A stretch of 32,866 nt of DNA from a virus. Shown here piece by piece: positions 11,533-32,566 of this stretch. Where the stretch lies: the IMG/VR virus record IMGVR_UViG_3300044633_000308, positions 1 to 32,866 of that record. One strand, written 5' to 3'. Numbering within the stretch: position 1 is the stretch's first letter; each line of letters begins with the position of its first letter. A program made the position numbers and the translations under genes. The notes below the pieces were generated by a model. That model did not search any database, was not told the DNA's origin, and saw only the letters and a program-made list of their open reading frames with translations.

Positions 11533-14001
11533 ATGAAAAACGTTGCACTATACATTTATATCGACGAGTTAATTGATGACGTTATAACGCCAATTAGACA
11601 CCGTTTGGAATTGTTTGCGGATGAATCAATTTCCGTTACTTCATCCATTCAAAATTTTAGGGATTTAGGTAAGATTTTTACGGACTATTCAAAGGCATTT
11701 ACTATTCCGGCATCGAGCCACAATAACAAAATTTTATATCATTGGTACAATAGCGAAGTAGGAGCAACAATTATAGATAACCCTTTGAGTTTAACCGATG
11801 CATTTGACCATAGAATAACTTACTACGGTTATATTGAAATTGACACTATTCCTTTTAGGTTTGGAAAGTGGTCTTTAAAAGGAAGTAAGAAAACAGACAA
11901 TAAAATTGAAAGTTACTCGATTAATTTTACGGGTAATTTAGTGCAATTAAAGGAAAGGTTTAAGGCTGATAAATTAAACTCACTAGCTTACTTTGAGGAT
12001 GGCGCGAGAATTAGTTACTACGATGAGTTAAATCACCTTTACGACCTTACAAATGTTCAAGCAAGGGTTACGGATGATAATTATGATATACTTTACCCAT
12101 TAATAGGAACTAAAAGAAAATTATTTTTAGCAGCAGGAGCAACCGCAGCCGATAATATTTCAACTACTGCGGGAAAATTATTATTTAACGAGATATTTCC
12201 AGCGATACGAGTAACAAAAATTTTAGAGTATATTCAAGGCGCATACGGAATTACCTTTACTGGCGCATTTATTCAAAGTTTGACTTTTAGCAAATTGTTT
12301 CTTTATCTTAAAAATCAAGATGAATTTACGATTAGACCGGAACAATTAAAAATTGACTTTACTGCTAAAGCATCTGACACAATTATTGAAGATGTATTTG
12401 GCGCTTTTATAGACACAGAAATAGGAGCGGGGTTTGATGATTTAGATTTAACAACAGATTTATTGACTTATAATTTTAACGCTATAAATCAATTTTACAA
12501 TCCACCAGCAACACCAATTAACAATACAATTTTTATAAATAGAGAATTAAGTTTAAAAATTACAACAGCATCAACAAATCCCTACAATGTTTATGTTTAT
12601 AATAATGGAGTATTATTTACATCTACATTAAACCGAGTCGGAAATATAAATTACTTAATAAATGTAAGTAACGTTGGTCCAGAATATTTATTTACTTTTT
12701 TTGTAAGTTCGGAATTAGGTATAACTTTTACAAGTGAGTTAATTCAAAGAAAAAGAAGAATAGGTTTTTACTCGACTGGTGTATATTCTGAATATCAAAA
12801 ATTAACAGCCACAAGCCCATCACAAACAACAGTATCAAATATTGATATAAAATCATTTGTCCCTGATATAACCGTTGTTTCATTTATGGAGGGTTTGATT
12901 AAGATGTTTAATTTGATGGTAATACCAACATCTGACACTTCATTTAATTTACAACCGTTACCCGATTACTATTTAGACGGTCAGAACATCGATATAACGC
13001 AGTATGTGGATACAGATTCAATCGACATAAACCCTCCACAATTATTCAAACGTATATCGTTCAAATACCAAAAGTCTGAAAATGCTTTAAATGAAATTTT
13101 CAGAGGTTTATTCAACAAAGAATATGGCGACTTAAATTTTGAAAATCAAAATAGTGCATTTGCGGAAACTTACGAAGTAGCGTTACCTTTTGAAAATTTT
13201 ATGTTTGACCGCGAAACTGGAACGGATTTTATCACTGCGACAATGTTTAATAAAGATAATAACGCATACGTTCCAAAGCCGAGTTTAATTTATTGCAATG
13301 GGGTGCAGCCAGTAACTCCCGACATTAAAATATCAGATACTACAAATACAAATAACATATCGGAATATGTTAGGTTTAACAATGAGTTGCCTTTAGCAAG
13401 TACAGATTTAAGTTACGTTCAATCTTTAAATTGGGGTGCTGAAATTTCATCTTGGTTTTTAGATATTAATTTTACAGGATTATACGATAAGTTTTATAGC
13501 GGATACATTGAAAATCTATTTAACCAACGTACTAGAATACTTAAATTAAAAGCTATGCTTCCAACATCTTTGATTTGCTCAATTAAGTTAAAAGATAAAT
13601 TAATAGTTTCAAATAAACGATACATAATCAACACAATGACACCCGAACTAACAAGCGGCAAAACTTCCTTTGAGTTGATTTTAGATAATAGCGAACCATC
13701 GCAAATAGGAAGCGAGATTTTAAGATTAACAAACATTCAAACAATGACTCTTGACAATACAGCGCAATCAATCGAGTTGCAAGTATTCTTAAAAGACTTT
13801 GATTTGTGGCGTTCAAAACTAGCAACGGGATACTTAGTAGGGACTTACACAAGCGGTGGAAATGTTTACGAAGATGGGCTTTTAAATGTTGCAGTTCCAG
13901 CAAATACAACCGGAGTTAATCGAACTGACAATGTATTATTAGAGTACTTTGAAGGCGCAGTTTCAACAACTATTCAAATCCAAATCAATCAATATGCTTA
14001 A
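11533..14001 (+). CDS. Large tail structural protein (baseplate hub candidate)
   Basis: An 822-residue protein, largely beta, rich in N, T, Y and F. The N-terminus LFADESISVTSSIQNFRDLG followed by KIFTDYSKAFTIPAS is characteristic of a conserved large structural protein in flavobacterial phages. A middle part (VSFMEGLIKMFNLMVIPTSD) recalls hub-type domains. A role in the tail tip is inferred from size and from its place directly before the tape measure. The stop overlaps the ATG of a 44-codon frame. Confidence 0.55.
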   Translation: MKNVALYIYIDELIDDVITPIRHRLELFADESISVTSSIQNFRDLGKIFTDYSKAFTIPASSHNNKILYHWYNSEVGATIIDNPLSLTDAFDHRITYYGYIEIDTIPFRFGKWSLKGSKKTDNKIESYSINFTGNLVQLKERFKADKLNSLAYFEDGARISYYDELNHLYDLTNVQARVTDDNYDILYPLIGTKRKLFLAAGATAADNISTTAGKLLFNEIFPAIRVTKILEYIQGAYGITFTGAFIQSLTFSKLFLYLKNQDEFTIRPEQLKIDFTAKASDTIIEDVFGAFIDTEIGAGFDDLDLTTDLLTYNFNAINQFYNPPATPINNTIFINRELSLKITTASTNPYNVYVYNNGVLFTSTLNRVGNINYLINVSNVGPEYLFTFFVSSELGITFTSELIQRKRRIGFYSTGVYSEYQKLTATSPSQTTVSNIDIKSFVPDITVVSFMEGLIKMFNLMVIPTSDTSFNLQPLPDYYLDGQNIDITQYVDTDSIDINPPQLFKRISFKYQKSENALNEIFRGLFNKEYGDLNFENQNSAFAETYEVALPFENFMFDRETGTDFITATMFNKDNNAYVPKPSLIYCNGVQPVTPDIKISDTTNTNNISEYVRFNNELPLASTDLSYVQSLNWGAEISSWFLDINFTGLYDKFYSGYIENLFNQRTRILKLKAMLPTSLICSIKLKDKLIVSNKRYIINTMTPELTSGKTSFELILDNSEPSQIGSEILRLTNIQTMTLDNTAQSIELQVFLKDFDLWRSKLATGYLVGTYTSGGNVYEDGLLNVAVPANTTGVNRTDNVLLEYFEGAVSTTIQIQINQYA

Positions 14002-29527: not shown

Positions 29528-29540
29528 ATTACTATTATTG
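29511..29540 (+). promoter_or_regulatory. Promoter for the helicase-methyltransferase operon
   Basis: TTG at 29511-29513 and TATTATTG at 29533-29540 with a 19-base spacer. The -7 element differs from TAnnTTTG at one base, but the spacing equals that of the perfect promoter at 1815. Confidence 0.6.
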
Positions 29541-29626
29541 CAAAAGAAATCCGCCAAGATTGAATTTATAATTAACTCACTCTTTGCACTTGGCGGTCAT
29601 TGAGTGGGTTTTTTAATTTTAATATA
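29541..29626 (+). promoter_or_regulatory. Structured leader with interlocked stems and a terminator before the helicase gene
   Basis: Stem 1 pairs CCGCCAAG (29551-29558) with CTTGGCGG (29589-29596), 8 bp perfect. Stem 2 pairs AACTCACTC (29574-29582) with GAGTGGGTT (29602-29610), 9 bp with one T-G wobble, and runs into TTTTTT ending at 29614, 12 bases before the ATG. The arms alternate, giving an H-type pseudoknot with loops of about 15, 6 and 5 bases. This is the most compact of the three leaders. Confidence 0.7.
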
Positions 29627-30997
29627 ATGACAGAATATCAAAAGTTCTTAGAACAAAAAAGACATTCAATAGGAAACTTTGGATTTGAGGCAAATTACAT
29701 TCCAGAGATTGCTTTTGATTTTCAAAAGTATGTTATTGAAAAAGCTATTTTAAAAGGTCGTAGCGCAGTATTTTTAGATACTGGATTAGGTAAGACATTA
29801 GTGCAGCTTTCACTTGCTAAAAACATAGTAAATCACACAAACAAAAAAGTATTAATTCTTACTCCTTTGGCGGTTGCTTTTCAATTTATTTTAGAAGCTG
29901 AAAAGTTAGGTATTGAAGATATCGAATATTCAAAAGACGGAAAACATACTAAAAAAATTGTAGTTTGTAATTACGAGCGTTTGCATTACTTTAATGAAAA
30001 AGACTTTGAGGGTGTTATACTAGATGAAAGTTCGATACTTAAAAACTTTGATGGAAAGATTAAACAGGAAGTAACATCTTTTGTTAAGAAAATACCTTTT
30101 AGATTTTTATCTACTGCGACACCATCCCCAAATGATTTTATCGAATTAGGTACAAGTAGCGAGGCGCTAGGTTATATGGGTTATATGGATATGCTAGGAA
30201 AGTTTTTTAAAAACAATCAAAATAGCGTAGATAGTAATAACCGTAATATTGGTGAAAAGTTTTATTTAAAGCCTCACGCTGAAAAAGATTTCTTTGCATG
30301 GGTTAATCAATGGTCGATTATGGCAAAAATGCCAAGCGATTTAGGTTTTAGTAATGATCGTTATAATTTACCTAAATTGATTATAAATAAACATATTGTA
30401 GAAAATCAATCTTTATTTGACTTAGATGGTCAAATGAGTATGTTTGTTCCTATTGCTAAATCAATGACAGAAGTTAGACACGAACAAAAGCAAACAGAAG
30501 AAAAACGATGTGAAAAAGCTATTGAATTAGCGCAAGGAAAAACTAGCGTATACTGGTGTAACACAAACAACGAAAGCTCAATACTTAAACATTCAGATAA
30601 AAACGCAGTTGAAATAATTGGTTCTCAATCCATAGACAAAAAAGAAGAAATACTTTTAGCGTTTGCCAATGGTGATATAGAACGTTTAATTACAAAAGCT
30701 AAAATGACTTCTATGGGTTTAAATTGGCAGCATTGCAATCACTCGGTATTTTTTCCAACTTGGAGCTATGAACAATATTACCAAGCTATAAGACGTTTTT
30801 GGCGTTTTGGACAAACTAAAGATGTAACTATTGATTTAGTTGTTTCAGATGGACAAACAAGGGTATTAGAAGCCTTACAGCAAAAGACACAAAAAGCAAT
30901 CGAATTGCATAAAAATTTAACCGAAAATGTTAATCGTTCATTTGAACACAAAGTAAAAGAATTTAACAAAGAAATTATCAAACCTAACTTTATTTAA
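29627..30997 (+). CDS. SNF2-like DNA helicase/translocase
   Basis: A 456-residue superfamily 2 enzyme. Walker A is DTGLGKT (51-57), motif II LDESS (132-136, DExx form), and motif III STATPSPND (162-170). The C-terminal lobe has MTSMGLNWQHC and the arginine-rich motif VI AIRRFWRFGQTKDV. The pattern matches phage SNF2-type helicases that often sit beside a DNA methyltransferase. I choose ATG 29627; the upstream TTG at 29600 lies inside the terminator stem. Likely roles are DNA translocation in replication, repair or protection from restriction. Confidence 0.88.
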   Translation: MTEYQKFLEQKRHSIGNFGFEANYIPEIAFDFQKYVIEKAILKGRSAVFLDTGLGKTLVQLSLAKNIVNHTNKKVLILTPLAVAFQFILEAEKLGIEDIEYSKDGKHTKKIVVCNYERLHYFNEKDFEGVILDESSILKNFDGKIKQEVTSFVKKIPFRFLSTATPSPNDFIELGTSSEALGYMGYMDMLGKFFKNNQNSVDSNNRNIGEKFYLKPHAEKDFFAWVNQWSIMAKMPSDLGFSNDRYNLPKLIINKHIVENQSLFDLDGQMSMFVPIAKSMTEVRHEQKQTEEKRCEKAIELAQGKTSVYWCNTNNESSILKHSDKNAVEIIGSQSIDKKEEILLAFANGDIERLITKAKMTSMGLNWQHCNHSVFFPTWSYEQYYQAIRRFWRFGQTKDVTIDLVVSDGQTRVLEALQQKTQKAIELHKNLTENVNRSFEHKVKEFNKEIIKPNFI

Positions 30998-30999
30998 TT

Positions 31000-32013
31000 A
31001 TGAAAAACCAAGTAAAAGACCAAGTAGTTACAGACAAATACGCTATTTATAATAGCGATTGTATGTTAGTAATGCCAACTTTGGCAGATGAAAGTATTGA
31101 TCTTTCAGTTTATAGTCCTCCGTTTGCTGGATTATACAATTATTCAAGTAGTGAAAACGATTTTAGCAACTGCGAAAGCAAAGAACAATTTTTAGAACAA
31201 TATGAGTTTTTAATTTCTGAAATAGCAAGGGTAACAAAAAAAGGTCGTATAACTGCTGTTCATTGTACAGATGTATTTGACAATACTTGTAGGCTTTGGG
31301 ATTTTCCAAACGAGATTATTAGAATACATACAAAGTACGGTTTTGAATATCGTAACCGCATTACAATTTGGAAAGAGCCTTTAAAAGTTCGTATGCGTAC
31401 AATGGTCCAATCTTTAATGCATAAATTTATAGTTGAAGATTCAACAAAATGCTTTACCGCAATGCCTGATTATGTATTGATATTTACTAAAAAAGGTGAA
31501 AATGAAACTCCAGTAGTGCATCCTTACGGAATGAATCATTACGCTGGTGAAGTTCCAATACTTCCAAACATATTAAGAGCGTGGAATAACGCTAATAATT
31601 CTAATCTTAACGAGGTTGAATTATGGGAACATTTAAACAACATAAATGAAGATGATAAAATCACAAAATTGAATCATTATATTTGGCAACGTTACGCATC
31701 TAGTGTTTGGGATGATATTCGTATAGATAACGTTTTGCCTTTTAGAGATAGTAAAGAAGAAGATGATGAAAAACACGTGCATCCGCTTCAATTAGATGTT
31801 ATCGATAGGATTGTAGAATTGTATTCAAATCCTAATGAAGTTGTTTTAACTCCTTTTATGGGTGTAGGTAGTGAGGTTTTTAGCCCCGTTTCTATGGGTA
31901 GGAAAGCAATAGGTATTGAATTAAAAGATAGTTACTTTAAACAAGCTATTTTAAATTTAAAAGAAGCTGAGAAAAGATTTAAAGAAAAAATTAAACAAGA
32001 ACAATTATTTTAA
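31000..32013 (+). CDS. Beta-class DNA methyltransferase (probable N4-cytosine or N6-adenine)
   Basis: A 337-residue SAM-dependent enzyme. Catalytic motif IV SPPF (39-42) comes first and the SAM-binding motif I PFMGVGS (285-291, then GIEL) near the end, the beta-group order. SPPF is more typical of N4-cytosine enzymes, while adenine enzymes usually have DPPY/F. The target-recognition part should lie around 150-250. It starts two bases after the helicase gene. It could mark the phage genome against host restriction. No partner endonuclease is visible. Confidence 0.88.
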   Translation: MKNQVKDQVVTDKYAIYNSDCMLVMPTLADESIDLSVYSPPFAGLYNYSSSENDFSNCESKEQFLEQYEFLISEIARVTKKGRITAVHCTDVFDNTCRLWDFPNEIIRIHTKYGFEYRNRITIWKEPLKVRMRTMVQSLMHKFIVEDSTKCFTAMPDYVLIFTKKGENETPVVHPYGMNHYAGEVPILPNILRAWNNANNSNLNEVELWEHLNNINEDDKITKLNHYIWQRYASSVWDDIRIDNVLPFRDSKEEDDEKHVHPLQLDVIDRIVELYSNPNEVVLTPFMGVGSEVFSPVSMGRKAIGIELKDSYFKQAILNLKEAEKRFKEKIKQEQLF

Positions 32014-32021
32014 TATCTTTG
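32014..32021 (+). promoter_or_regulatory. -7 element of the recombination operon promoter
   Basis: TATCTTTG fits TAnnTTTG and lies directly after the methyltransferase stop. The -33 position reads TTA (31991-31993, 20-base spacer) instead of TTG, so the promoter is probably weaker than that at 1815. Confidence 0.6.
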
Positions 32022-32122
32022 CAAAACAATCTGGTCAGAGATTGAAAAAAAACTATAATCTATCCTGACTTTGCCTATGCTGACCCGTAGGATTTAAGTT
32101 AGGATTTTTTAATTTAAACATT
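32022..32122 (+). promoter_or_regulatory. Structured leader with interlocked stems and a terminator before the recombination operon (complete copy)
   Basis: Stem 1 pairs GGTCAG (32033-32038) with CTGACC (32080-32085). Stem 2 pairs ATCCTGAC (32062-32069; counted inclusively, with one wobble) with GTTAGGAT (32098-32105), followed by a T-tract to 32110 and the ATG at 32123. GTCAG (32034-32038) can instead pair with CTGAC at 32065-32069, which is the 5' arm of stem 2. That pairing would break the terminator, so this leader has a visible two-state switch. Confidence 0.65.
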
Positions 32123-32566
32123 ATGTCAAAAGATTTATTTCAGTTAATGCGCCAACAAGAGATTGACACGCAAAATTTCCTTCCAAACAAAAAAGAGATC
32201 CAGTTCTCCGCACAAACATTTATTAAAGAAGTGTTAGATGCTGGAGAGATTGACAAAATTGAACTACTAGCACAAGCCAAAAGAATGGGCGAAGCGTTAG
32301 ATGTTATTAATGCAGAACTTATAAAAGTTCTCCCACAAGAAAACTTTGAGGGGTACGGATTAAAAGGTACGTTCCGAAGTGGAGGCGAAACTATCAATTA
32401 CAAAGATTGCGAAGTTTGGAGTGATATTAACCGAGAATTAAAAGAACGTGAGGACTTACTAAAGTTAGCTTTAAAATCGCAAAACGAAATCTACGATGCG
32501 GCTGGAGTTCAAGTGCCTAAAGTATCAACAACGCCACGCAAAAGTAGTATGGCAATATCATTTTAA
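32123..32566 (+). CDS. Gp157-like helical protein, second (variant) copy
   Basis: A 147-residue variant of the protein at 72-515. Differences cluster at residues 23-31 (NKKEIQFSAQ against NRLEIQLSAK) and around the GYGLKG segment. The conserved remainder, including the charged ERE helix, shows that both alleles are intact. In a circular genome this is the same locus as 72-515 and should not be counted twice. Confidence 0.65.
   Translation: MSKDLFQLMRQQEIDTQNFLPNKKEIQFSAQTFIKEVLDAGEIDKIELLAQAKRMGEALDVINAELIKVLPQENFEGYGLKGTFRSGGETINYKDCEVWSDINRELKEREDLLKLALKSQNEIYDAAGVQVPKVSTTPRKSSMAISF

Follow-up and report, generated by a model that had tools for sequence, protein, structure and literature searches.

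Analysis of an IMG/VR virus record revealed three leaders, each of which would act as an attenuator cassette close to its promoter, with termination of transcription governed by a loop-loop kissing interaction, a reading to which we assign a probability of about 50%. The window, meaning the whole stretch of DNA analysed, is record IMGVR_UViG_3300044633_000308 with its 32,866 bases, and all positions given here are those of the window. Judged by position and parts, the leaders are attenuators, and what is new in them is the kissing lock together with the many unrelated and exchangeable versions. A leader RNA of roughly 90 bases with this design stands at the head of many early operons in Flavobacterium-type phages. 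In related phages, 145 distinct leaders fall into 78 clusters that share no sequence by a 7-mer criterion, with almost none in shuffled DNA, and dozens of unrelated sequences building one shape point to an undescribed family of swappable on/off leaders.

The three leaders (named A, B, and C) lie on the + strand, and every part claimed for them was located by reading the letters of the sequence. In leader A, a -7 promoter box of the Bacteroidota type (TATATTTG, 1837-1844) is followed by hairpin 1 (1851-1870), in which the arms AATGTAT and ATACGTT enclose the kissing loop TGGTGG (1858-1863); the fold and a blind topology scan recovered this hairpin as well. The terminator hairpin of leader A (1893-1938, stem 1893-1904/1928-1938), identified from sequence, fold, and covariation in the A superfamily, is topped by an apical subhairpin (GTTG-CCACCA-CAAC, stem 1910-1913/1920-1923) with the kissing loop CCACCA (1914-1919). 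Its sarcin-ricin-like internal loop is formed by AGUA (1906-1909) opposite GAAA (1924-1927). The T-tract (1937-1943) precedes the ATG (1951) of a gene assigned by Pfam and PHROGs to a DUF6291/primosomal-like protein (1951-2544). Leader B starts from a -7-like box (TATTATTG, 29533-29540) that deviates from TAnnTTTG, and its hairpin 1 (AATC, loop CGCCAA, GATT; 29548-29561) was found by sequence, fold, and the blind scan. Sequence and the blind scan also delimit the terminator hairpin (29574-29610, stem 29574-29582/29602-29610), which carries a bulged apical subhairpin (TGcAC-TTGGCG-GTCA, stem 29585-29589/29596-29599) with the kissing loop TTGGCG (29590-29595) and ends in a T-tract (29609-29614). 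The stem-1 arms read here are CCGCCAAG (29551-29558) and CTTGGCGG (29589-29596), and the kiss of leader B may extend to CCGCCAAG. The genes behind it (29627-32013, ATG at 29627) encode, according to Pfam, an SNF2/DEAD-type helicase (29627-30997) and an N6/N4 DNA methylase (31000-32013).

Leader C possesses a -7 box (TATCTTTG, 32014-32021) and a hairpin 1 (CAATCT, loop GGTCAG at 32033-32038, AGATTG; 32027-32044) that was recognized by sequence, fold, blind scan, and covariation. Its terminator hairpin (32062-32105, stem 32062-32070/32097-32105), defined by covariation and fold, includes an apical subhairpin (CCTATG 32074-32079 with CGTAGG 32086-32091) and the kissing loop CTGACC (32080-32085), and the T-tract occupies 32105-32110. 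The following gene (32123-32566, ATG at 32123) encodes a 147-aa protein of unassigned function by Pfam and PHROGs, and a gene for an Erf-type annealing protein comes next. A second copy of the 3' part of leader C lies at the contig end (1-71, + strand); positions 1-89 are 100% identical to the copy at the other end, and hairpin 1 is absent because the contig begins within the leader. The contig ends 1-814 and 32053-32866 are mutual repeats of only 92.3% identity, although the leader part is identical, and the two copies of the 147-aa gene differ mostly at third codon positions (28 of 43 differences). These ends probably stem from two strains whose genome is circular or permuted, or else reflect a diverged duplication.

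The original prediction had described the same order of parts in all three leaders, with a partial repeat at 1-71, and both descriptions were borne out by the sequence. Its distances from the -7 box to the ATG (101, 106, and 86 bases) and its stem lengths are right in value but had been listed in the order C, A, B. The interlocked stems it had seen are real pairings, but they had been taken for a bare alternating stem pair and their loop nature had been overlooked; the structure is a kissing-hairpin terminator. In each of A, B, and C, the stem-1 5' arm is the loop of a small hairpin of its own at the 5' end of the transcript, and the stem-1 3' arm is the loop of the subhairpin that tops the terminator hairpin. 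The 6-nt loops of hairpin 1 (GGTCAG, TGGTGG, and CGCCAA) find exact complements in the terminator apical loops, which makes stem 1 of each leader a loop-loop kiss joining hairpin 1 to the terminator hairpin. Pseudoknot-free minimum-energy folds contain the two hairpins in leader A (z -3.6) and leader C (z -4.4), while the fold of leader B is approximate only (z -1.6) and differs in the inner pairing of the terminator loop.

The geometry of the whole leader set is well defined. Measured from the -7 box, hairpin 1 starts at a median of 5 nt downstream and the T-tract at a median of 90 nt, and the ATG follows the start of the T-tract at a median of 18.5 nt. The kiss spans 6-12 bp (median 8), its 3' end lies a median of 17 nt before the T-tract (IQR 14-19), and the linker is 86% A/U. 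The AGUA/GAAA internal loop surrounds the subhairpin in about a dozen clusters, including leader A, Croceibacter phage P2559S, and FCL-2, which marks the internal loop of the terminator as non-random; by its sequence it resembles the sarcin-ricin (bulged-G) motif and may adopt that motif in three dimensions. A linker tuned to the length of a coaxial stack of hairpin 1, kiss, subhairpin, and terminator, which would have argued for the simultaneous formation of all helices, was rejected on the negative correlation (rho -0.41).

The frequency of the topology was compared with that in shuffled DNA. The blind scan, which combined hairpin 1, loop-loop complementarity, and a terminator, placed leaders A, B, and C as the top three among 30 matches on the + strand of the window. 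The bare pattern of any stem with any kiss is common in shuffled DNA too, so matches were further required to follow a -7 box of the Bacteroidota type and to precede an ATG, two independent conditions. The coding strand of 198 related viral loci and the window then yielded 142 matches, 96 of them distinct; shuffles gave 8-9 and the opposite strand 5. Conversely, when 150 distinct promoter-terminator-ATG leaders were chosen blind to the kiss, loop-upstream complementarity reached p<=0.05 in 106 of them, compared with 7.5 expected from shuffled upstream sequence. A shuffling comparison had been proposed along with the original prediction, and its outcome is divided: an alternating stem pair by itself is matched in shuffles, but with the promoter at its usual place 146 distinct structures stand against 3. 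A chance alternation of stems thus accounts for the bare pattern; requiring hairpin 1 and the promoter position rules it out. Chance complementarity in AT-rich intergenic DNA, for which the abundance of the bare pattern in shuffles might speak, is hardly credible given these counts, the compensatory changes described below, and the restriction to phages (71 matches in 1.43 Mb of phage contigs versus 0 in 0.80 Mb of Flavobacterium, Pedobacter, and Sphingobacterium chromosomes by the topology scan); we consider it refuted by the counts.

The 146 structures came from a scan in which no T-tract was asked for. Nevertheless, in 139 of them (95%) at least 3 of the 6 nt following the stem are T, as expected of an intrinsic terminator, which indicates that the terminator belongs to the conserved design. 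This observation bears on a further reading, in which the structures serve chiefly to shield the 5' end of the mRNA, to stabilise it, or to adjust translation, and the T-tract does not work as a terminator. The position of hairpin 1 at the extreme 5' end and the closeness of the ATG agree with such a role, but control of this kind would not need a T-tract right after the stem, and we regard it as very unlikely.

Covariation analysis demonstrated that the pairing is maintained while the letters change. For the C superfamily, an MAFFT alignment of 12 sequences has 98.1% of its cells paired, with compensatory changes at 20 of 27 pairs; its kiss is 100% paired though it reads GGTCAG, GGCTAG, or GGCAAG, and compensatory changes occur at 2 of 6 kiss positions. 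In the A superfamily, to which the phage 11b leader belongs, covariation is seen at 15 of 23 pairs, among them 3 of the 6 kiss pairs, and the kiss is 100% kept. Both superfamilies thus display two loops with conserved complementarity, the hallmark of a kissing-loop RNA, and in both of them pairing collapses in slid controls. Compensatory changes are present in hairpin 1, kiss, subhairpin, and terminator stem; the search for such changes in homologous leaders that the original prediction had called for was therefore positive in every helix, as judged with a pair-count control in place of R-scape. Its idea of independent sequences converging on one topology is likewise upheld by the 78 unrelated clusters, the compensatory changes, and the near-obligate T-tract. 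Across classes, sequence is conserved only in short internal-loop motifs.

The leaders change places between genes. Among close homologues of the leader C gene, some have the C leader and others the B leader, a third unrelated one (L035), or no leader at all, and the sequence downstream of the T-tract is unchanged by the swap. No recognisable leader is present at 8 of the 37 homologues, which indicates that the leader is dispensable at a given gene. In turn, the CGGGCAGG class was found before two different helicases, a DUF6291 gene, and a phage 11b gene, and the B class before the orf-C gene, the helicase gene, and a NUMOD4-HNH gene. Since one gene can bear unrelated classes and one class can precede unrelated genes, the leaders are exchangeable cassettes. 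Genes behind leaders encode helicases, PrimPol/DUF3987 proteins, replication initiation proteins, and DUF6291 proteins, but also NUMOD4-HNH and T5orf172 nucleases and small proteins without assigned function, so the proposed restriction to DNA-metabolism operons does not hold. Furthermore, NUMOD4-HNH homing endonuclease genes often have a kissing-loop leader of their own (L143:11896-12375, L013, L017, L032, L034, L035, and L201 at about 11595-11690), and these mobile nuclease genes may help to spread the cassettes.

At least one leader occurs in 36 of 41 related phage genomes or contigs, with 63 leaders in total. Clear examples are present in the cultured moomin phages tooticki, lillamy, and mumin and in the cultured phages 11b, FCL-2, Polaribacter P12002L, and Croceibacter P2559S; in P12002L, the gene after the leader is annotated as a primosomal protein. 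The topology scan found no leader in phi38:1, phi10:1, 6H, P12024S, or the first 79 kb of crAss001, nor in HK022 or TP901-1, two phages for which a Bacteroidota promoter model makes the test unfair. No Rfam family reached its gathering score within the window, and lax Rfam scans of leaders A, B, and C gave chance-level matches to other families only. Only topology is conserved, which explains why sequence-based family searches miss this class. In the literature searched, which left most subscription journals outside its coverage, no kissing-loop terminator leaders in phages were found, and an earlier description is possible.

Several related arrangements were observed besides the main design. 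A second architecture (L153, L152, L020, L038, L091, L141, and L095) adds a further hairpin to the linker, and its terminator is compact, with an apical loop that is itself the kissing strand. In a third type (L057, L061, L084, L109, and L114), which precedes DUF6291-type genes or a neighbouring gene, the 5' kissing strand immediately precedes the ATG of a short ORF that crosses the terminator and starts with MKK or MKN, which suggests a translated leader peptide. Riemerella phage RAP44 (L424 at about 13863 and L425 at about 10625) has two long leaders with a T-tract, similar genes behind, and a 12-bp upstream-to-loop complementarity (TGTTAATCCAAG, TGTTAAACCATC); they are maybe a larger relative of the kissing-loop design. 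In Bacteroides phages B40-8 and B124-14 (L431 and L433), GCAACG near a -7-like box complements the terminator loop, a faint hint that the design reaches into Bacteroides phages. A prophage-like locus of Pedobacter sp. Leaf170 (L278, just upstream of 8001), with a GATTGACA/TGTCAATC kiss and a long terminator hairpin, was sighted by eye as a possible chromosomal example.

In the attenuation model, RNA polymerase would start a few bases upstream of hairpin 1, which would be the first element to fold and would present its loop. After the A/U linker, the terminator 5' arm and the apical subhairpin would be made, and the apical loop could then kiss hairpin 1. A length of about 17 nt is roughly what polymerase covers; given the median of 17 nt between kiss and T-tract, the kissing strand is expected to clear polymerase about as the T-tract is reached. 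Docking of the loops would compete with or assist terminator closure at this decision moment and so set read-through, and the default product is predicted to be a compact RNA of ~90 nt with structure at both ends. That the kiss promotes termination is our guess.

The geometry fits premature termination between promoter and gene, as in an attenuator in the broad sense. A classical attenuator with a mutually exclusive antiterminator was also considered and rejected, as no segment pairs with the terminator arms: the upstream segment complemented the terminator 5' arm at p<=0.05 in only 7 of 76 clusters against shuffled upstream controls (median p 0.61), and in the same test the kiss is significant in 64 of 76. 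Phage attenuation, as originally proposed, thus remains the best reading of the sequences, but its form with a competing helix is unsupported. The untuned linker and the homologues that lack a leader also count against the attenuation model. With no antiterminator found, the RNA by itself shows no off/on switch, and induction probably needs a trans factor; we infer that a phage or host RNA-binding protein, a modified polymerase, or a complementary RNA would decide read-through in vivo.

Alternatively, the terminated leader could be a trans-acting small RNA that controls copy number or superinfection, like the antisense RNAs of plasmids and phage P4. The finished RNA would kiss nascent leaders of the same class and alter their termination, with loop classes behaving as incompatibility groups. 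Such a role would explain the many unrelated classes at one locus, and antisense RNAs that control copy number usually rely on kissing loops for recognition. The same kiss hexamer is shared by 0 of 32 within-contig leader pairs, but with 2.0 expected this absence falls short of significance (P=0.11). Moreover, both kissing partners reside in one RNA, which explains the pairing without trans action. Covariance models of two leader superfamilies gave only a few weak, chance-level matches in 199 Flavobacteriaceae genomes, none of them with the kiss; with no convincing match there, a role in prophage immunity is unlikely. Taken together, we consider the trans-acting reading unlikely. A bolder combination, to which we give slightly less credence still, is an open-ended set of orthogonal kissing-loop terminators whose ~90-nt products serve in trans as class-specific dose or superinfection sensors and are traded as promoter-leader cassettes; if true, early gene expression would be tied to how many phage genomes a cell contains.

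The leaders form an apparently undescribed class of structured phage RNA and hint at a way in which phages infecting a major bacterial phylum could control the timing or dose of early gene expression. They also offer synthetic biology many natural, apparently orthogonal kissing-loop terminators, and the cultured phages 11b, FCL-2, P12002L, P2559S, tooticki, lillamy, and mumin make them directly testable.

The leaders resemble several known systems in part. In cobalamin riboswitches, docking takes place between the loop of the expression hairpin and that of another domain. Kissing-loop riboswitches possess a large conserved ligand-binding core, whereas the phage leaders have no such core and their sequences vary freely. 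The short P4 CI and P1 c4 RNAs of phages contain complementary segments and regulate early genes; unlike the leaders, they act in trans on separate complementary sites and are known from proteobacterial temperate phages. No match to the P1/P4 c4-type RNA (RF01695) at the Rfam gathering score exists in the window; c4 is listed in PMC2864571. The put RNA of HK022 (~70 nt, two stem-loops) makes polymerase terminator-resistant without dedicated phage proteins (PMC9378689); like the leaders, it is a short cis RNA that consists of two hairpins and follows early phage promoters. By analogy, the leader might bind RNA polymerase in cis and render it resistant to termination, its own terminator being part of the loading structure. 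The two hairpins, the similar total size, and the location just downstream of an early promoter agree with this; however, put is described with neither an intrinsic terminator of its own nor a kissing loop (PMC9378689), the leaders end in a T-tract before the gene, and their sequence conservation across classes is confined to internal-loop motifs, all of which makes a put-like function quite improbable. In the phage leaders, unlike put, the terminator forms the 3' half of the element. The pT181-type attenuator of a Staphylococcus plasmid shares with the leaders an upstream hairpin and an intrinsic terminator in the 5' leader, loop-loop kissing as the recognition step, and the capacity for orthogonal loop variants (PMC4878617). 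In pT181, however, the kiss is made between the sense leader and a separate antisense RNA, and the terminator 5' arm is sequestered by an antiterminator (PMC4878617), whereas in the phage leaders no antiterminator was found, both loops belong to one RNA, and one of them is the terminator's own apical loop.
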